Shown piece after piece: positions 7,264-61,419 of a DNA stretch of 64,000 bases; within the stretch, counting starts at the first letter, position 1, and every line of letters begins with the position of its first letter. Position numbers and translations under genes: made by a program. Where the stretch lies: NCBI GenBank assembly GCA_944326485.1, contig CALVED010000001.1, positions 124,001 through 188,000 of the forward strand, written 5' to 3'. This DNA comes from Candidatus Gastranaerophilales bacterium (GTDB lineage Bacteria; Cyanobacteriota; Vampirovibrionia; Gastranaerophilales; Gastranaerophilaceae). The notes under the pieces are model-generated. The model was not told the origin of the DNA. It ran no database searches and saw only the letters and a program-made list of their open reading frames with translations.

Positions 7264-7447
7264 TGTCCGAGAAAAAATTAACGATAAGCTGAAAGAGTTA
7301 GTGAATTTTTTTACAAAACGAACCAAAAAATTTGTTTTTGAGTAAGCCTTTATTCATAGTGAAACGAAGGTGAACAAAGTTTTCAAAAGATGAGTACTTT
7401 GTTAGCGAGGATTACTCGGTAACAAAGTGCGATATTAAATTAAATTG
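7264..7447 (+). repeat. Intergenic hairpin repeat, copy A
   Basis: It starts TGTCCGAGAAAAAATT and contains ACGATAAGCTGAAAG, then a T-rich run, then the GTACTTTGTTAGCGAG...TCGGTAACAAAGTGC inverted repeat, ending GATATTAAATTAAATT. The same order of blocks is seen at 39224, 45405 and 61288. This repeat fills most of the 312-base gap between the M49-like gene and the next small gene; I see no gene in it. Confidence 0.85.
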
Positions 7448-38854: not shown

Positions 38855-39196
38855 ATGGATATATTTGATAAACTTTCAAAATCAAAATTTCGAGCTAAAT
38901 TTAAGCTAACACCTAAAGATATTGAGTACATAAAAAATAAAGGACTTGATAAAATTTATTCACATGCCTGCGATTTTATAAGAAAAAGGGTATCTGCAGC
39001 AAATATTGAAAATGACGGAAAACAAACCCCAATGCGAGGACATCCTGTTTTTATAGCACAACACGCAACGGCAACTTGCTGCCGAGGATGTATAGAAAAA
39101 TGGCATAAAATAAAAAGAGGAACAGAACTAACACAAGCACAACAACAATATCTGGTTTCTATAATTATGGAATGGATAAAAAGACAAATGAAATAA
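38855..39196 (+). CDS. DUF4186 family protein
   Basis: The 113-residue protein carries the strongly conserved DGKQTPMRGHPVFIAQHATA block followed by TCCRGCIEKWH, as in the DUF4186 family. It has paired cysteines and several histidines that could bind a metal. The N-terminal helix (LTPKDIEYIKNKGLDKIYSHACDFIRKR) is also typical. No function is established for the family to my knowledge. It is probably co-transcribed with the membrane protein upstream. An intergenic hairpin repeat follows directly. Confidence 0.9.
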   Translation: MDIFDKLSKSKFRAKFKLTPKDIEYIKNKGLDKIYSHACDFIRKRVSAANIENDGKQTPMRGHPVFIAQHATATCCRGCIEKWHKIKRGTELTQAQQQYLVSIIMEWIKRQMK

Positions 39197-39223
39197 TATT
39201 ATAAAACAATAATAATATTATAT

Positions 39224-39405
39224 TGTCCGAGGAAAAATTCACTATAAACTGAAAGTTTGAGTGAATTTTTTTTATAAAACCAACCACAAACCTTGTTTTT
39301 GAGTGAGTTTGTATCCCTAGTAAAACAAAGATGAGCAGTGCTTTTAAAAAGTGAGTACTTTGTTAGCGAGGATGGCTCGCTAACAAAGTACGATACTAGA
39401 TTAAA
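39224..39405 (+). repeat. Intergenic hairpin repeat, copy B
   Basis: This copy shows both structures best. AAAAATTCACT (39233-39243) pairs with AGTGAATTTTT (39260-39270) and is followed by a T-run. GTACTTTGTTAGCGAG (39355-39370) pairs perfectly with CTCGCTAACAAAGTAC (39376-39391) around a five-base loop. Its right end reaches the stop codon of the adjacent radical SAM gene. Confidence 0.9.
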
Positions 39406-40795
39406 TATTTTCATAATATTTTATAATCTCAGAAAAACTAACTTTTAAATCTTCCTGCTCTTTAAAAAATTTGATTACCCTTTTTATAGAATCTATTTTC
39501 ACATCAATCTCATTTTTTGTTCTATATAAATCTATTTCTATATCTTTAATAAAATATTGTTTACACTTTAAAACTAAAGCATTCAGTTCATCTACACTAT
39601 CATTTATACCTTGCATAATCTTATATTGAATTATTATTTTTGAAGAAGATATAGTATCCTTGTTAACTAATTTAGAATATTTTTCTATGTTCCTCCATAT
39701 ATCATTAAACATATCTGTATTTGTTATTTTTTTGTATGTATTTTCTAATGCTGAAAATAAAATAATTTTCAAAATAGTATTACCGTTTTTTAACGATTGT
39801 TCTATATCAGAAGAATATATTTTTGCAGAAGTTTTTATTTCATAACTTTTTTGGATTAGTTCAGTACTTATTTTCTTATTATTAAGGTTTTCTATATAAT
39901 TGAATAATTTTATTGAATTTATGTGTTTATCCTTATAAATTTTATCTTCTATCAACATCCAATTATAATCAAAATTAACGTAAATATTATCACAACCTAC
40001 CTCATCACACTTTTTTAAGAAAGCATTAAATTCATCTATATTATCATTAATACCATCCAAAATTATGTATTTTAAATATACTTTTGCCAGTGGATTAGCT
40101 TTTGCAACTTTTATATACTTTTTTATATTGGACCATACTTTATCATAATATTTAACTCTTTTTATTTTTTCATAAGTTTCTTTTGTTCCAGAATCTACAG
40201 ATATTGTTAAATTAGAATCATATTTTTTTAAAGCATGTTCAATTTCCTTTGAATAAAACATACCGGAACTAGGAAAATCAATATGAAAATTATTTTCTTT
40301 TGCATAATCAACAATCCACCTTAACTCGTGAGAAGGATATTCACTACAATCTCCACCTTCTAAATATATTGTGCCATTTTGTTTTAGTAGTTTTTTTTCC
40401 GCTAATGTTTCTAATAATGGTCTTATATCATATATTTTTCTGGCATTAAGTTCTTTGCGTTTGTTTAAATCACCTTTAGTTGCAACACAATATATACAAT
40501 TACAAGAACATTTTGATCTATTCGCAATTACTATATAATCTATACCAACACTTTCATCCCATTCATCTTCTTTGAAAAAAACACACTTAATACATTGTTC
40601 AGGAATATTTTTATCTGTCTTACAATTTTTTATAAAATCTTCTCTGGCATTTAAATAAACATCTACAAAATCTTTTTCACCATTGTAATCATTATAAAAG
40701 GATTGTTTGGAGCCAACTAGACAATAACAAAATGATAAAGAATTATTTATAACCATTAAGGAAGATATAGCACTTTTACAACACTTAAATCTCAT
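39401..40795 (-). CDS. Radical SAM protein with duplicated half-barrel, paralogue 1
   Basis: I use the ATG at 40795, giving 464 residues and the same MRFKCC start as its neighbour; a TTG two codons earlier is possible. The CSCNCIYC block (96-103) supplies the cluster cysteines C96, C100 and C103 of a CX3CX2C radical SAM site. A GGD (neighbour: GGE) sits near 149. Extra cysteines at 5-6, 23, 25, 58, 68 and 71 suggest an N-terminal auxiliary-cluster domain, SPASM-like but at the wrong end. The segment at about 184-279 recurs in weaker form at 331-425. A peptide-modifying role is inferred from the adjacent YcaO gene. The right end of repeat B overlaps the stop. Confidence 0.8.
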   Translation of the reverse strand: MRFKCCKSAISSLMVINNSLSFCYCLVGSKQSFYNDYNGEKDFVDVYLNAREDFIKNCKTDKNIPEQCIKCVFFKEDEWDESVGIDYIVIANRSKCSCNCIYCVATKGDLNKRKELNARKIYDIRPLLETLAEKKLLKQNGTIYLEGGDCSEYPSHELRWIVDYAKENNFHIDFPSSGMFYSKEIEHALKKYDSNLTISVDSGTKETYEKIKRVKYYDKVWSNIKKYIKVAKANPLAKVYLKYIILDGINDNIDEFNAFLKKCDEVGCDNIYVNFDYNWMLIEDKIYKDKHINSIKLFNYIENLNNKKISTELIQKSYEIKTSAKIYSSDIEQSLKNGNTILKIILFSALENTYKKITNTDMFNDIWRNIEKYSKLVNKDTISSSKIIIQYKIMQGINDSVDELNALVLKCKQYFIKDIEIDLYRTKNEIDVKIDSIKRVIKFFKEQEDLKVSFSEIIKYYENI

Positions 40796-40854
40796 TTTCA
40801 ACTAAATCCTATTCTAAATGTATATTATACAATATTTTTTTATTTAAAAATGCA

Positions 40855-42249
40855 TTATAAATCAATCAATGATGATATTTCTTTAGAAAAATATATATTT
40901 ATGTCATCTTGTCTTTTTAAAAACTTTATATCTTCAATTAGTTTTTTTATTTTTTCATTATCTAAAGTTTCCTGACTATATATATCAATTTCAATATCTT
41001 TTATACTTAAAGATTTACATTTTTCTAATAATGAATTTAATTCAGATTCACTATCATTAATACCCGGCATTAATTTATAAAGAATTTTTATTTGAGAGTA
41101 TGAAGTAGTAACTTTTCCTACAAAATTAGAATATTTCTGAATATTATTCCATATTTCATCATATAAATTGGTATTTGTAATTTTTTGATAAGTACTTTCT
41201 AATCCTGCAAACAAAATAATATAAACAATTGTATTACCTAACTTCAAATCTTCTTCTATATTTTTTGAATATACCCTGGCCGATGTTTTTTTCTCTTGTA
41301 TTTGTAAAAAGACATCTGAATATATTCTTTTATCGTTTAAAGATTGAATATAAAACAATAAATCAGAAACAGCTTTAGGAATCTGATTTATTCTACCCCC
41401 ATCATCTTGAAGCCAATCTAAATCAACAGAAATATCAATATGATTACAATTTATACTATTACATTTATCCATAAATGCTTTAAATTCATCAATATTATCA
41501 TTTACACCACTCAAAATAATATATTTTGCACATACTTTTGCATCCGGATTTTCTTTAGATACTTCAATATAATTTGCAATATTTGACCAAACTTTATCAA
41601 AATATTTAACTCTTTTTATTTTTTCATACATTTCTTTAGTCCCAGAATCAGGAGAAATTAGAATAGAAGCTTTACCTGTTTTAAGTGCATTAGCTATTTC
41701 ATCGGAGAAAAACATACCTGAACTTGCAAATTCAATTTCCCACCCATGTCCAAATGCAAAATTAATTAACCAATTTAATTCCTCTTTCGGATATTCACTA
41801 CATTCACCGCCAGCTACGAAAATTTTGCCATTATCTTTTAATAATTTATTTTCATCTAATTCTTTTAAAACAGGTATTACATCCCAAATTTCTTGTTTAT
41901 TTAAATTTTTTCTTTTTTCAATATTTCCATCCGAAACAACACAGTATATACAATTACAAGAACAATGAGTTCTATTCGCAATTCCGATTAAATCAATACC
42001 TATGTCTACATTCCAATCCGCATCTACGACCAAAGAACAATTTTGACATTGAAAAGGTATATTTACGCCATTTTGACAATTTGCAATAAATTCTTTTCGA
42101 GCTTTAATATATTTTTCTATAAAATTATTTTCACCTTTGTAATTTTGCCAAAACGCAAATTTTCTTTCAGATAATTTAGGGCAAAAAGATAACGCAGTAT
42201 CTGTAATCATAAATGAAGAAATTGAATGTTGACAACATTTAAATCGCAT
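40855..42249 (-). CDS. Radical SAM protein with duplicated half-barrel, paralogue 2
   Basis: This 464-residue paralogue lies 60 bases upstream of the first. It has CSCNCIYC at 96-103 (CX3CX2C: C96, C100, C103) and AGGEC at 146-150 for SAM binding. An N-terminal Cys-rich segment (C5, C6, C23, C58, C68, C71) comes first. ILISPDSGTKEMYEKIKRVK (197-216) with KYIILSGVNDNIDEF in the first unit is echoed by IILFAGLESTYQKITNTNLY (344-363) with YKLMPGINDSESEL in the second, so the second half of the barrel is duplicated. The start has only a weak ribosome binding site. The gene is divergent from the ycaO-like gene after about 150 bases, with a TATAAT in between. Confidence 0.8.
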   Translation of the reverse strand: MRFKCCQHSISSFMITDTALSFCPKLSERKFAFWQNYKGENNFIEKYIKARKEFIANCQNGVNIPFQCQNCSLVVDADWNVDIGIDLIGIANRTHCSCNCIYCVVSDGNIEKRKNLNKQEIWDVIPVLKELDENKLLKDNGKIFVAGGECSEYPKEELNWLINFAFGHGWEIEFASSGMFFSDEIANALKTGKASILISPDSGTKEMYEKIKRVKYFDKVWSNIANYIEVSKENPDAKVCAKYIILSGVNDNIDEFKAFMDKCNSINCNHIDISVDLDWLQDDGGRINQIPKAVSDLLFYIQSLNDKRIYSDVFLQIQEKKTSARVYSKNIEEDLKLGNTIVYIILFAGLESTYQKITNTNLYDEIWNNIQKYSNFVGKVTTSYSQIKILYKLMPGINDSESELNSLLEKCKSLSIKDIEIDIYSQETLDNEKIKKLIEDIKFLKRQDDINIYFSKEISSLIDL

Positions 42250-42343
42250 TTTACTTTAGTTTCTAATTCTACTCCAGTAATTATATCTTAATTTCTACCA
42301 ATTTAAAAGTTATACAATAAAATTAGTCGTCATTCGAAATTTA

Positions 42344-42372
42344 TTGACTTTTATAAAGTGTTCTGATTAAAT
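42344..42372 (+). promoter_or_regulatory. Putative promoter of the ycaO-like gene
   Basis: TTGACT (42344-42349) and TTAAAT (42367-42372) are 17 bases apart, about 32 bases before the ATG at 42404. Confidence 0.5.
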
Positions 42373-42403
42373 CAAATTGTAATAAATATTGGTTGGACAC
42401 AAA

Positions 42404-44152
42404 ATGATATATGATAAGAAAAAAGATTTAACTCCACAGAATACAGTTGAAAATATAAAATCAATTTTACAAGATATAGGTATTCCTCCACTTGAAGAAA
42501 TGTGTATGGAAAGAATCATAAATGATCACGTAACTGAATCTATATTTCTAAAACTTCCTAATGACATGACAGTAACAGCAAATGGGAAAGGAACAAATTA
42601 TGAATATGCATTAGCCAGTGCATATGGCGAATTTATGGAAAGACTAGAAGTTGGCAACTTATTCCCAATAACCCCGCCTGATCAAATTAAAATAACACCT
42701 AAAGAACTTATAAGTAAAGGTTACTTAAATTTTTGGTTCAATGAAGACTTAAAGAAAGTAGAAAAATATGTAAATATTGCAGTAGATGTATGTTGTAATT
42801 ATACAAACTATATTAATAAAGAAGAAAAAACAGCAGAGTTGTTGCCATTCTATCACGTAAATAAAGATGAAATATCCTATATTTCTCCTAATTTGTTACA
42901 ATATACAGGAGGATTCACAGGTAGTTGCGCAGGAAATACGCCATATGAAGCACTTGTGGAAGGTCTTTCTGAAGTATTTGAAAGACACATCATTAGAAAG
43001 GCAATAAAAGAACCTATATCTTTCCCTGACATACCTGAAGAATTTTATTTAAAATATGAATCAATAAAAAGAATTATTGAATATTGCAGGAAATTAGGAT
43101 TTAAAGTTGTTGTAAAAGATGCATCATTAGGCAAAAAATATCCTGTTGCCTGTGCTGTTTTATTGGATGAAAAGACAAATGGATATTACGTTTGGTTTGG
43201 GGCACATCCTTCACTTCCGATTGCAATAGAAAGATGTTTCACTGAAATTTTCCAAGGCGCTGATTTTAGTAATAAAAATTATGTTAATGCTTTATTCAAG
43301 TTTTCCGGAAGAAGAGATAATATAATTCCTGATGCACGTATGGATAATGCTTTCAATCATAGATTCTTAGAGGTAAATGCTGTGTTCTTCTCTAAAAAAC
43401 CGGACTATTTATTTTCATACGACGATTGGAAAGAAAATGAATCAATATCAAATAAAGATTTATTTAAAAATATGATTAAGATATTAACAGATAAAAAAAT
43501 AGATGTATTTATTAGAGATATATCTTTTTTAAATTTTCCTGCATATATAATATGTGTACCAAAATTAATAAGCACATTAAATAATATAGATATATCCTCA
43601 GGAATAGACATAAGAAATAACTATTATAAAACAGTAAGAGTCATTGGGGAAAACATCCCTATAAATTTAACTCCTCAAGAAGTTCTTGACTTTTTTGAGT
43701 ATGCTTTCCACCTACAAATGCTTATGAAAAATGATTATAAAAATTTTGAATTGGTTTATATAATTACCTTACTAAAAACAAAACAATATCAAAAAATATT
43801 AAATATCATTACTCCGTTAAAAAATTCATTTAAGTATTCAAAATATAAAAAGATGTTCTTGTTCTTAAATGATTACATAAATGCAAAATTCCAAAATATT
43901 TACAATATAGAATATGAAAATAATTTATACAAAAAATACGGAAAACATTTTGTTAAAAAACTAATAGAAATATTCGATACGGATGACTCTTTCCAAAATG
44001 CTATTAATATGCTTAAAAAACATAAATTCTATTATTTAAAACATATAACAGAAGAAAATATTAACAGAAAAAAATATATAAGTGAAAAAATCCTTAAAAA
44101 GTATAAAGAAAATACTCCAAATCAAAAATTAGTAAAAAATTTATTTAATTAA
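42404..44152 (+). CDS. YcaO-domain ATPase, E. coli YcaO-like
   Basis: From the ATG at 42404 the protein is 582 residues (a TTG five codons earlier is the alternative). The YcaO core has GKG (61-63), ASAYGEFMERLE (71-82), CAGNT (175-179), EGLSEVFERH (186-195), FGAHPS (265-270) and AIERCFTEIFQG (274-285). These are the ATP- and magnesium-binding elements. The length and the C-terminal helical extension (about 420-582) match E. coli YcaO rather than the azoline cyclodehydratases, and there is no C-terminal PxPxP. YcaO enzymes activate amide backbones with ATP. No E1-like, ocin-ThiF or TfuA partner is adjacent. Divergent to the radical SAM pair. Confidence 0.88.
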   Translation: MIYDKKKDLTPQNTVENIKSILQDIGIPPLEEMCMERIINDHVTESIFLKLPNDMTVTANGKGTNYEYALASAYGEFMERLEVGNLFPITPPDQIKITPKELISKGYLNFWFNEDLKKVEKYVNIAVDVCCNYTNYINKEEKTAELLPFYHVNKDEISYISPNLLQYTGGFTGSCAGNTPYEALVEGLSEVFERHIIRKAIKEPISFPDIPEEFYLKYESIKRIIEYCRKLGFKVVVKDASLGKKYPVACAVLLDEKTNGYYVWFGAHPSLPIAIERCFTEIFQGADFSNKNYVNALFKFSGRRDNIIPDARMDNAFNHRFLEVNAVFFSKKPDYLFSYDDWKENESISNKDLFKNMIKILTDKKIDVFIRDISFLNFPAYIICVPKLISTLNNIDISSGIDIRNNYYKTVRVIGENIPINLTPQEVLDFFEYAFHLQMLMKNDYKNFELVYIITLLKTKQYQKILNIITPLKNSFKYSKYKKMFLFLNDYINAKFQNIYNIEYENNLYKKYGKHFVKKLIEIFDTDDSFQNAINMLKKHKFYYLKHITEENINRKKYISEKILKKYKENTPNQKLVKNLFN

Positions 44153-45337
44153 CTAAACAATACCTCGGAGTATAGAATATATATCATTTAATACAATCAA
44201 TAAAAATATAATATTAAATGAAGAAAAAGTAATTTTCATAATTTTTTCCATTGTACTCCTTTTTACTGATTTTTTAAATAAATCTCCAGATAAAATAATT
44301 AAAAATTTTCCACCATCAAAAACAGGAATTGGAAATAAATTTATTAATGCCATATTAAGAGATAAAAAAGACATTAACCATAACATTCGAGCACAGCTAC
44401 CATAAAATCCCAGATCTGCACTTATTTTAATTATAGAAAAAATACCTCTAACATCTGTAATACTTATGCTCCCTGTAATTAATTCTTTTAGATAGAAAAA
44501 TAAAATATAAAACTGATTAAATATACCTTTCAAACTATTTTTCACTAGTATAGGAAAAGAACTTATCTTTTCATATTTTTCTTTTACATAAACATTGATA
44601 CCAAGAGAACCATTTTCATTTACATTTATATTATCAATTGATACCTTTTCATTATCCCTTATTACAACAACTTCATTTGAATCTTTTATATCATTAACAT
44701 ATATATCCGGTAAAAATATCAATAATTGATTATTATTGTGACTTAATAATTGTTTATTTCCATTTCTGTATTTTTTTATAGAAGGTTGATATACCCTAAA
44801 ATACTCTTGTAATGCGATTATATCATTAATTCTTTTATTATTTATAGAATATATAATGTCACCTTGTTTTAATTGCTGATTTTTAACATCTATATGTTTC
44901 TGATTTTTAAAAGAATCAATTACAACTTCATAATTATTTAATGGAATGAACTTACAAAATATACCAATAAGTAAAAGGATGAGAAATGAAACACAAATAT
45001 TCATAAAAATTCCCGCTAAAGTAATAAAGGATTTTTGGAAAGAAGTTTTATTTAAAAATCTTTTAGATGAATTCATAGGAAGATCACATTTTGGATTACT
45101 TTCAGGATAGGCAATATAGCCACCAAAAAAGAACAACAAATGTACAATAAACTCTGTATCAAATATTTTCTTTCTAAAAATAATCGGACCACATAGAGGA
45201 AGACCAAATGCAAAACGTTCAACCCTAACACCAAAAAGTTTTGCCGCACAAAAATGTCCTACTTCATGGAATAATATTATTAAACCAATAAAAAATATAG
45301 TTAATAAAATATATAAAAAGAAATGCAAAACTTCCAT
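44153..45337 (-). CDS. M50 site-2 protease-like membrane metallopeptidase
   Basis: The ATG at 45337 gives 394 residues; a TTG seven codons upstream lies closer to GGAG and could be used. The first helix carries the zinc site LFHEVGHFCAAKLFG (HEVGH 24-28). A PDZ-like region runs about 135-235 (QGDIIYSINNKRIN). The second motif near the C-terminus is INLFPIPVFDGGKFL, giving the Asp ligand. Four hydrophobic segments are visible. It resembles RseP/MmpA but is diverged around the GP-N and PDZ parts. It converges with the ycaO-like gene with no gap. It may process a peptide or anti-sigma substrate, or be the housekeeping enzyme. Confidence 0.82.
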   Translation of the reverse strand: MEVLHFFLYILLTIFFIGLIILFHEVGHFCAAKLFGVRVERFAFGLPLCGPIIFRKKIFDTEFIVHLLFFFGGYIAYPESNPKCDLPMNSSKRFLNKTSFQKSFITLAGIFMNICVSFLILLLIGIFCKFIPLNNYEVVIDSFKNQKHIDVKNQQLKQGDIIYSINNKRINDIIALQEYFRVYQPSIKKYRNGNKQLLSHNNNQLLIFLPDIYVNDIKDSNEVVVIRDNEKVSIDNINVNENGSLGINVYVKEKYEKISSFPILVKNSLKGIFNQFYILFFYLKELITGSISITDVRGIFSIIKISADLGFYGSCARMLWLMSFLSLNMALINLFPIPVFDGGKFLIILSGDLFKKSVKRSTMEKIMKITFSSFNIIFLLIVLNDIYSILRGIV

Positions 45338-45404
45338 ATATAAATTCTTTCTCCACAAATCACATAAATAATTATCTCATAAATTATTAATATATAAAAT
45401 TGTC

Positions 45405-45581
45405 TGTCCGAGAAAAAATTCAAGATAAGCTGAAAGTGTGCGTATTTTTTTATAAAATGAACTAAAAACTTTGTTTTTGAGTGAGCTTGTATCCGTAGTT
45501 AAACGAAAGTGAGTGATGTTTTAAAAATGTGAATACTTTGTTAACGAGGATGACACGGTAAGAAAGTTTAATACGAGATTA
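45405..45581 (+). repeat. Intergenic hairpin repeat, copy C
   Basis: TGTCCGAGAAAAAATTC, GATAAGCTGAAAGTG, the TTTTTTTATAAAATGAACTAA run and TACTTTGTTAACGAGGATGACACGGTAAGAAAGTTTAATACGAG (in outline) occur in the family order. The second hairpin is more eroded than in copy B. It separates the protease gene from the small peptide gene. Confidence 0.8.
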
Positions 45582-45593
45582 GTTTATAAAAAA

Positions 45594-45620
45594 AAGAAAC
45601 CAGTGAAATACTGGTTTCTT
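45594..45620 (-). terminator. Terminator of the 60-residue peptide gene
   Basis: AAGAAACCAGT (45594-45604) pairs perfectly with ACTGGTTTCTT (45610-45620). On the minus strand it is followed by a run of eight T. It lies 24 bases after the peptide stop. Confidence 0.85.
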
Positions 45621-45643
45621 TTATCAATATAATAAACTAAGCT

Positions 45644-45826
45644 TTATAGTCCTATTCCATATATAGTAACACCATATACAGATGAACCCCATTTGGCAAT
45701 TAGGTAATTATTAACATCTACTTGATCACCATCAACACCAAATAGAAATATATCGTCTGAATTATCTGAATTATTAGTATCTACTGATTTTAAATTTTTT
45801 ATATCTTCTGGATTTATATCATACAT
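45644..45826 (-). CDS. 60-residue peptide, candidate modified-peptide precursor
   Basis: An ideal AAAGGAGA lies nine bases before the ATG. The peptide has an acidic, helix-capable first 40 residues (MYDINPEDIKNLKSVD, then NSDDIFLF) and a sharply different last 20: YLIAKWGSSVYGVTIYGIGL, rich in Gly, aromatic, Ser/Thr and beta-branched residues with no cysteine. That leader/core contrast, the monocistronic layout and the strong terminator fit a RiPP precursor. Its neighbours (YcaO, two radical SAM proteins, M50 protease) could modify or process it. No double-glycine cleavage motif precedes the core. An ordinary small protein is the alternative. Confidence 0.6.
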   Translation of the reverse strand: MYDINPEDIKNLKSVDTNNSDNSDDIFLFGVDGDQVDVNNYLIAKWGSSVYGVTIYGIGL

Positions 45827-45943
45827 AATTAAATCTCCTTTTACCTTATAATAACATATTTCCCTAAATTTAACAATAAATCTAGGTTTTATATATAATA
45901 TTTAATAAAATTTTACAACAAATAATAGTTATAAAAAGCTAAT

Positions 45944-46600
45944 TTAAATACAAACAGACATATTTTTTATAACTCTTCCAATAACCTTAAAATCTATTTT
46001 TTTAAGATCTGATAAGTTATATAATATTTCTTCATAATTTTTATTCATATAAAAGAATTTAACAGAACCATCAATATTTTGCTTTATTCCATTAACAAAG
46101 ATAAAATTATCATTTCTTGTAGTATAAGCATATATACCACTTAACATTATATTATTTTCTGATAAATCAAGGACTAACATATCTTGATTTCTAATTGGTT
46201 CAATTCCACCATCCATAGAATCACCCGTCATTTGCATTATTCTCAAATCATTTTCATTTTTTTTCCATATATCGTGAACCAATATACTATCAAGCCATAT
46301 GCTTAAAAATCTAGGATTTTTTATGGAGGAAATAAGATTAGGATTTTCATAATGTTTAATTTCAACAGTATCAACGACAGAATGACTGTCTGTATTTATA
46401 AACATATTTCCCTCACCGGTCAATAACCAATTAATATTTACATTCATATTTTCATATAATTTTATAAAGAAATCAGCAGAAGGTTTATTTTCACCTCTTT
46501 CATACTTACTGAGCTGCTGTTGTAAAATACCCATTTTACTTGCAAATTCGCCTTGTTGCATATCTAAAGCTGCTCTTATTTGTTTTAATCGATTTTTCAT
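45944..46600 (-). CDS. CI/LexA-like repressor: HTH_XRE plus S24 domain
   Basis: The N-terminal HTH (LKQIRAALDMQQGEFASKMG, then LSKYERGENKPSADF, about 5-45) and WLLTGEGNMF are classic CI-type. The C-terminal S24 domain shows QMTGDSMDGGIEPIRNQDML (Ser near 129). The position of the catalytic lysine (usually V-K-R) reads V-N-G, so self-cleavage may be lost. Two ATG codons lie in tandem; I chose the one at 46600 because AGGTGA abuts the other. It probably binds the palindrome inside the promoter just upstream, which faces the NarL-type gene. Confidence 0.82.
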   Translation of the reverse strand: MKNRLKQIRAALDMQQGEFASKMGILQQQLSKYERGENKPSADFFIKLYENMNVNINWLLTGEGNMFINTDSHSVVDTVEIKHYENPNLISSIKNPRFLSIWLDSILVHDIWKKNENDLRIMQMTGDSMDGGIEPIRNQDMLVLDLSENNIMLSGIYAYTTRNDNFIFVNGIKQNIDGSVKFFYMNKNYEEILYNLSDLKKIDFKVIGRVIKNMSVCI

Positions 46601-46625
46601 CATTCACCTATCTTTATAAAAAGTA

Positions 46626-46866: not shown

Positions 46867-47556
46867 ATGATTGAATATAATGAACCCTGCAAAGAAATTA
46901 GAACACTAATAGTACAAAAATATACATTTGAAAGACTTGGGTTAAAAAATACGTTAAAAAACTATTCGTTTATAAATGTTATAGGGGATACTTCCAGCGG
47001 TACAGAAGCAATCAAAATAATTTTACAAAAACAACCTGATATTGTAATAATGGATTTATTTATTGAAAAGAAAGAAAGAATAAATCTTATAAAACAAATA
47101 AAATATAAATTTAAAAATATAAAAATAATAATACTTACAGATCATACACAACCTGAAGATATAATTTTAGCAACAAATTCCGGAGTTAGTGCATATTGTA
47201 TTAAGAATATAGCACCAAAAACTCTTTCTAGTGTAATAAAGAATGTTGCAATGGGCGCTAATTGGATTGATCCATATATTTCATTAGGTGCATTAAATTT
47301 TATAAATAATTCTAAAAAGAATATTATAGAGAACAATAAATCAGAAGAAAAATATACAAATATAAATTTAACTGAAAGAGAACTTGAGGTTTTAAAACAT
47401 CTTGTTTCAGGCAAAAGTAACTCTGAAATTGCAAAAGCATTAATAGTTAGTGTTCATACAGCAAAAGCACATGTATGTAATATTTTTCAAAAAATGTGCG
47501 TAGAAGATAGAGTTCAAGCAGCAGTAAAAGCAATTAGAGAACATATAGTAAATTAA
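46867..47556 (+). CDS. NarL/FixJ-type response regulator with altered acidic pocket
   Basis: The receiver domain (about 10-128) keeps the phospho-Asp in IVIMDLF (D63), the Thr/Ser position (T91) and the Lys in YCIKN (K113). The usual acidic pair after the first strand is replaced by Gln17-Lys18 (LIVQKYTF). The LuxR-type HTH (about 165-228) is well preserved: LTERELEVLKHLVSGKSNSEIAKAL and VHTAKAHVCNIFQKM. Loss of the Mg-binding acids suggests it may not be controlled by normal phosphorylation. GAGAGAG precedes the ATG. No histidine kinase is nearby. It has an unusually long leader from the promoter at 46626. Confidence 0.88.
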   Translation: MIEYNEPCKEIRTLIVQKYTFERLGLKNTLKNYSFINVIGDTSSGTEAIKIILQKQPDIVIMDLFIEKKERINLIKQIKYKFKNIKIIILTDHTQPEDIILATNSGVSAYCIKNIAPKTLSSVIKNVAMGANWIDPYISLGALNFINNSKKNIIENNKSEEKYTNINLTERELEVLKHLVSGKSNSEIAKALIVSVHTAKAHVCNIFQKMCVEDRVQAAVKAIREHIVN

Positions 47557-61220: not shown

Positions 61221-61287
61221 AATAGAAATTTTTGAAAACAGAGTAAATGCTTAATAAAACATTGTTCGGTTTTCCATAATGATAAAT

Positions 61288-61419
61288 TGTCTGAGAAAAA
61301 ATTCACGATAAGCTGAAAGTGTGAGTGATTTTTTGGAGTGGCGTTTTCAAAAGGTGAGTACTTTGTTACCGAGTCATCCTCGCTAACAAAGTGCGATACT
61401 AGATTAAAATTTTCTCGGA
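61288..61419 (+). repeat. Intergenic hairpin repeat, copy D (internally deleted)
   Basis: It starts TGTCTGAGAAAAAATTCAC and ends AATTTTCTCGGA, so the ends form an inverted repeat. The middle about 50 bases are missing relative to copy B. The long hairpin is present as GTACTTTGTTACCGAG and CTCGCTAACAAAGTGC. Confidence 0.85.

Follow-up and report, generated by a model that had tools for sequence, protein, structure and literature searches.

Eep-type M50 proteases release pheromones, and in daptides a short precursor goes together with an M50-like intramembrane protease, as it does at the locus considered here. M50 proteases also process epipeptides and pearlins (PMC10885120). Among the YcaO enzymes, that of E. 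coli thioamidates the ribosomal protein uL16 without TfuA; the E. coli-type group is acidic (pI 4.4 for E. coli), an acidity complementary to uL16, and its non-acidic members sit in RiPP-like contexts (PMC13063428). In thioamitides and the YcaO-TfuA RiPPs, YcaO is found beside a short precursor, and thioamides do not need Cys in the core (PMC8120280, PMC6511847). The motif XYG, finally, is that of tyramine excision by a splicease (PMC10533398).

Here, we analyse a peptide gene in a 64,000-nucleotide stretch of DNA (the window) from an uncultured, gut-dwelling, non-photosynthetic member of the Gastranaerophilales, a cyanobacterial relative, with a genome of 1.9 Mb that is 97% complete. We will show that the peptide gene is linked as one block with genes for a YcaO, an M50 protease and two radical SAM proteins, and that the combination of peptide, YcaO and M50 recurs in a second genome. 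A short precursor recurrently linked to tailoring enzyme genes, a trait by which RiPP loci are recognised, is found here. The context of the homologue and the shared, exchanged cassette largely support the original prediction, and we put at about three in four the probability that the ORF encodes a RiPP precursor that is modified by the YcaO and radical SAM enzymes of its cassette and cut by the M50 protease.

The peptide gene and the enzymes of its cassette

The peptide is encoded by 60 codons on the minus strand, at positions 45644–45826 of the window, with an ATG start at 45824–45826. As originally predicted, the gene has its own Shine-Dalgarno sequence, AAAGGAG at 45835–45841(−), 8 nt 5′ of the ATG, and its own intrinsic terminator at 45592–45622(−), where a 13-bp stem is followed by a T-run; two terminator-like sites were observed in the region, with 0.2 expected. 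The promoter-like element TTGTTA-17-TATTAT, with TG before the −10 (45848–45876, minus strand), is a weak call, since such sites are not enriched (17 counted vs 14.3 in shuffles). When the intergenic region 45360–45943 was shuffled with its dinucleotides preserved, some 60-aa ORF appeared in 9% of the cases, and an ATG ORF of at least 60 aa with a Shine-Dalgarno of at least 6 nt in none of 2000. The codon score is +25 bits in the frame of the peptide and negative in the other two sense frames. As no shuffle equals it and, among the sense frames, the score is positive in its own alone, the ORF is more than a chance occurrence, and it is confirmed as a real gene.

The predicted contrast between leader and core is borne out by the composition, with ten acidic and two basic residues at positions 1–40 and no acidic residue, a single Lys and no Cys at positions 41–60. 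This last part, a nearly uncharged, hydrophobic C-terminus, has two Ser and one Thr. Residues 28–43 (LFGVDGDQVDVNNYLI) form a candidate recognition stretch, and residues about 44–60 (AKWGSSVYGVTIYGIGL) a candidate core. The peptide has no family match in Pfam or NCBIfam and no double-Gly site, and nothing in its 60 residues looks like a signal peptide or a long hydrophobic helix. That the gene is monocistronic, as was also claimed, can fairly be inferred from the terminator that precedes the M50 gene; on the other side, the M50 gene lies directly downstream in the same direction, with only this terminator and a 178-bp repeat intervening.

The YcaO of the cassette (42404–44152, plus strand; an alternative TTG start is possible at 42389) has the E. 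coli-type architecture (PF02624, 140 bits); a PDB search retrieves E. coli YcaO at 8.9e-32. Its ATP-binding motifs are kept, being invariant columns in the alignment of YcaO sequences that includes it. The SagD/TOMM model TIGR03604 scores 29.5 bits, with a cut-off of 219. Within the cassette, neither an E1-like partner gene nor a PqqD/RRE-like domain was recognised with Pfam or NCBIfam, and there is no exporter gene. A search of the entire genome (97% complete) gave no TfuA (PF07812), while a control search detects it in Methanosarcina.

The protease, encoded at 44153–45337(−), is a second, cassette-type M50 intramembrane metalloprotease (PF02163, 133.6 bits; TIGR00054, 157.9 bits). It carries the features by which the M50 family is recognised, namely HEVGH as the HExxH motif and a C-terminal PIPVFDGG with the DG motif. 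The housekeeping RseP of the same genome is separate, on another contig, and an M50 search of the genus gave one RseP-type match in most genomes.

Two radical SAM proteins, 50% identical to each other, are encoded on the minus strand at 40855–42249 (protein 1, CX3CX2C; PF04055, 3.7e-13) and 39401–40795 (protein 2; PF04055, 1.1e-9). A structure model of protein 1, with a mean pLDDT of 73 and an alignment of five sequences, resembles PFL-AE (pyruvate formate-lyase activase), SuiB and SkfB. The modelled likeness to the peptide maturases SuiB and SkfB fits peptide chemistry, although it is no proof of it. Protein 1 has a repeated stretch in its C-terminal half; over the tandem pair (39404–42249) part of the barrel recurs in the C-terminal half, and the DNA contains four 48-nt repeats spaced 444/1010/444.

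A second locus and an exchanged block

A homologue of the peptide is present in the genome G289 (L094:9084–9272, minus strand). It is 62 aa long, 40% identical over 50 residues, and has its own Shine-Dalgarno sequence, GGAGG. The original prediction had called for a search for homologues next to YcaO and radical SAM genes, and the sole convincing one among 383 family genomes is indeed so placed, 161 bp from a YcaO gene, with an extra M50 gene and several radical SAM genes nearby, although the radical SAM family of the window was not seen directly beside it. Homologues occurring apart from these enzymes, named in the prediction as the case against it, were not seen, the comparison covering this one homologue.

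It is worth noting how this locus was found. It was first retrieved by YcaO and M50 protein searches of the genus, after which the neighbourhoods were read; since it was thus found via YcaO and not via the peptide, the score of the homologue is not a product of selection. With phmmer the homologue scores 24.1 bits (E 9.6e-5) among 37,287 six-frame fragments, whereas the best of 20 shuffled queries reaches 13.6 bits. An initial single-sequence search with the peptide in 288 family genomes had given weak matches alone, and a two-sequence profile run on 383 family and 383 order genomes, two samples that largely overlap, yielded no third convincing member; in the retrieved DNA surrounding two weak profile matches (L109, L121) no YcaO gene is seen. 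In viral contigs, neither the peptide nor the YcaO was confirmed. The similar peptide next to a YcaO and an M50 in this distant relative suggests a small and new family, so far of two sequences, whose peptides are probably modified, in these little-studied gut bacteria.

The two peptides have in common the stretch LFG[VI]D...VDxxNYxI and the core pattern [VI]-YG-[VI]-T-[IL]. Before the core 10 of 19 positions are identical, as against 3 of 17 within it, so that the conserved leader and variable C-terminus anticipated in the prediction are only suggested, by a comparison of two sequences.

The homologue also bears on two doubts about the ORF, namely that it might not be a true gene or that it might be the remnant of a gene for a pilin-like protein. 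Residues 9–60 do give weak tblastn matches to pilin-like proteins of about 218 aa (E 0.0035 or worse per genome), but these are the best loci picked out of 288 genomes, and the G289 homologue is without pilin similarity; the pilin-fragment idea was dropped on these two grounds. A spurious ORF is at odds with the Shine-Dalgarno sequence, the terminator and the coding score, and is refuted by the homologue in matching context. The probability of either is close to negligible.

Among about 30 YcaO loci of the family, those of the window and G289 are the only ones seen with an extra M50 gene beside YcaO, and it is at these two that the peptide occurs; neither was found at the other YcaO loci. The two extra proteases are 33% identical (160 bits), compared to 25% (60 bits) between the G289 protease and RseP, and in the M50 tree they stand apart from RseP, but on two long branches. 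The gene order is YcaO(+), M50(−), peptide(−) in the window and peptide(−), YcaO(+), M50(−) in G289, with YcaO and M50 convergent in both.

The YcaO tree places the window enzyme as sister to a paralogue on contig C3 and not to the G289 enzyme, which groups with YcaOs of another precursor type. Since the two are not sisters, two YcaO lineages accompany the pair of peptide and M50, and either the pair has moved or the YcaO has been replaced. This counts against the RiPP reading, as the YcaO might be there incidentally or be exchangeable for another. Further points do so as well: the linkage between radical SAM and YcaO genes is loose, as seen at the C3 locus of the same genome, whose counterpart in the sister species has retained a related radical SAM gene but has no YcaO, and the terminator sits between the peptide and M50 genes. 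The small number of members (two), the lack of a recognised RRE-type domain, of an exporter gene in the cassette and of a double-Gly site, and the many YcaO loci of the order with no recognised precursor weigh on the same side. By analogy with the M50-processed peptides (PMC10885120), the protease might alternatively be the main partner of the peptide.

On a rival reading, the product could be a small signal or membrane peptide outside the RiPPs. The M50 protease would set free its hydrophobic C-terminus, much as Eep-type proteases do with pheromones, and the targets of the YcaO and radical SAM proteins would be others. The joint presence of peptide and extra M50 at both loci, next to YcaOs from different branches, would agree with this, as would the uncharged, hydrophobic C-terminus and the regulators that adjoin the cassette. 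A YcaO gene is nevertheless adjacent at both loci, YcaO and peptide differ between species as a single block, and the 60 residues have no apparent signal peptide or long hydrophobic helix. We consider this scenario unlikely.

The variation as a block is seen in the comparison with the nearest species found, G210. The flanking DNA is about 93% identical up to position 39196, the end of a DUF4186 gene, and the alignment resumes at 45942. The segment in between (39197–45941; blastn junctions of the window vs L229) contains the two radical SAM genes, YcaO, M50 and the peptide. At the same chromosomal site, G210 has an unrelated block (L229:6282–15362) with genes for a methyltransferase, four radical SAM-like proteins, a GNAT-like protein and a PLP decarboxylase; the two radical SAM-like proteins that were scanned have radical SAM and B12-binding domains, and no precursor ORF was recognised in this block. 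Two regulators are kept at the border in both species: an HTH_3/peptidase-S24-like protein, a candidate regulator (45944–46603, minus strand; 74% identity), and a NarL-type response regulator (46867–47556, plus strand; 76% identity). As the whole segment is replaced while the regulators stay, the peptide, YcaO, M50 and radical SAM genes constitute one swapped unit. The simplest reading of these alignments would be that biosynthetic cassettes are swapped as blocks beside fixed regulators.

An interspersed repeat of about 180 bp has one copy at the left border of the cassette (39208–39403, plus strand) and a direct copy (45405–45582, plus strand) that separates the M50 gene from the peptide terminator. 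Further copies lie at 7264–7442 and 61276–61406 of the window, and genome-wide there are at least 40, with 77–87% identity, one of which adjoins a YcaO gene on contig C2. The repeat has no Rfam match in the region searched, where Rfam gave only tRNAs nearby. A part of these repeats in the exchange of cassettes would be speculation.

Proposed maturation and comparison with known systems

We infer that the peptide is the substrate of the cassette enzymes; its chemistry, its cleavage and its biological role are to be read in the same conditional sense. In the proposed mechanism, the basic YcaO (pI 8.58 in the window, 8.22 in G289) would bind the acidic leader, perhaps via the shared stretch LFG[VI]D...VDxxNYxI, and would activate, at the expense of ATP, amides of the backbone within the Cys-free core [VI]-YG-[VI]-T-[IL]. 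Further tailoring of the core may fall to one of the radical SAM proteins or to both; at the membrane, the hydrophobic C-terminal core would then be cut or released by the M50 protease. The cassette itself is swapped as a whole at a site which the two regulators border. The electrostatic match between basic YcaO and acidic leader is no general argument, as three other YcaO-linked peptides are basic.

The most likely chemistry would be a TfuA-independent thioamidation of the core, as that of E. coli YcaO on uL16. It is favoured because the searches gave no E1-like partner gene in the cassette and no TfuA in the genome, and it is preferred over heterocycles because neither such a partner nor a SagD-type match was detected and Cys is absent. 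The Ser and Thr residues proposed as modification targets in the original prediction are there, but their conversion to heterocycles finds little support, given the missing E1-like partner and a SagD/TOMM score far below the cut-off. Amidine formation or YcaO proteolysis are conceivable as alternative chemistries. Still more specifically, the locus could represent a new RiPP class of gut Gastranaerophilales, in which an E. coli-type YcaO with neither TfuA nor an E1-like partner thioamidates a Cys-free YG core, M50 frees the product at the membrane and the cassettes are swapped; we hold this view only tentatively and regard it as less likely than not.

With the E. coli-type uL16 thioamidase (PMC13063428), the window YcaO shares the architecture with its C-terminal helical region, the ATP-binding motifs and the absence of TfuA, but it is linked to a short peptide and an M50 gene. 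As another rival reading, the YcaO might modify a cellular protein, as happens to uL16 in E. coli, with the peptide as an unrelated neighbour. In line with this, the best NCBIfam match of the enzyme is YcaO_for_S12 (NF040716), but its 207 bits are far below the curated cut-off of 700. Also in its favour, several YcaO paralogues in the order adjoin nrdG/gltX-like genes, with no recognised peptide, and the lone YcaO at C3 differs between species. Against this, the window enzyme is basic, with a pI of 8.6 compared to 4.4, whereas the uL16 enzymes are acidic; its presence is sporadic (20 of 383 genomes), and the peptide homologue likewise lies beside a YcaO. A cellular target is in our judgement quite improbable. 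A housekeeping reading of YcaO and M50 together was dropped in view of the separate RseP, the sporadic YcaO and the basic pI.

Returning to the RiPP reading, the locus resembles the thioamitides and YcaO-TfuA RiPPs (PMC8120280, PMC6511847) in having YcaO beside a short precursor, but TfuA was not found in the genome and the precursor is unrelated. Like the epipeptides and pearlins (PMC10885120), it has a membrane M50 in the cluster and a linear precursor without double-Gly; unlike them, it has a YcaO, and no epipeptide-type or LanB-like enzyme was matched in the cassette. It differs from daptides in that the daptide_HExxH model, with its cut-off at 300 bits, gives only 15 and no other daptide genes were recognised in the cassette, and from the azol(in)e RiPPs (TOMM/LAP) in that the cassette showed neither an E1-like partner gene nor a SagD-type match for its YcaO, and the core is not rich in Cys, Ser or Thr. 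The window core has the XYG motif twice, as VYG and IYG, and the homologue has IYG, as in the spliceotides (PlpXY splicease). These YG motifs would fit splicease chemistry (PMC10533398), but the radical SAM proteins of the window appear unlike that maturase type. No PlpY/RRE was seen. The nif11-class maturase model, which we take to cover PlpX, has no match among the window radical SAM proteins.

A literature search found no paper joining YcaO with Melainabacteria, and the papers with Gastranaerophilales and 'RiPP' seemed off-topic, judged by title. If true, the RiPP reading would provide an uncultured lineage of the gut with an additional precursor family, with YcaO paired with an M50 protease, and would offer a testable YcaO peptide chemistry without a TfuA or E1-like partner, near the ribosome-thioamidating enzyme type of E. 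coli. The swapped-cassette site would be a natural experiment on pathway exchange under fixed regulators.

Other YcaO loci in the order and beyond

Elsewhere in the order, short precursor-like ORFs of other kinds, with Shine-Dalgarno sequences, are found near YcaO genes; at most YcaO loci of the order no precursor was recognised. A second acidic precursor-like family, of 58–60 aa and ending in FTYK, has a YcaO and a TupA-like ATP-grasp gene as neighbours (L096 and L211, 50% identical); its members are at L096:7966–8148, L141:10246–10428 and L211:2838–3014, and the L096/L211 type has no detectable similarity to the window peptide. Short Cys-containing precursor-like ORFs are found near YcaO at L091:7034–7168, L098:7243–7413, L089:5060–5215 and L103:6585–6764. 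Taken together, they suggest that RiPP loci centred on a YcaO recur in the order.

Several of the Cys-containing ORFs have an ATP-grasp or a radical SAM gene next to them. As for the second acidic family, G159 holds an identical copy of the ORF in a duplicated segment about 10.7 kb off, with a truncated YcaO. On contig C3, the lone YcaO (L088:8909–10654 vs L239) is a clean single-gene presence/absence difference between sister species, adjoining the conserved radical SAM gene. In Clostridia and relatives (L152, L153, L157, L215), odd short ORFs near YcaO encode LLFFFLLLVVLF peptides as well as Met-rich repeats (MNSMNTMM, KSMDSC), possibly another kind of precursor. YcaO-adjacent precursor-like ORFs are also seen at L159, L160, L170 and L185; they include Cys-x-Cys peptides followed by Gly/Ser-rich tails in Vallitalea, Clostridia and Thermotoga, and Ala/Val-rich ORFs in Endomicrobium.
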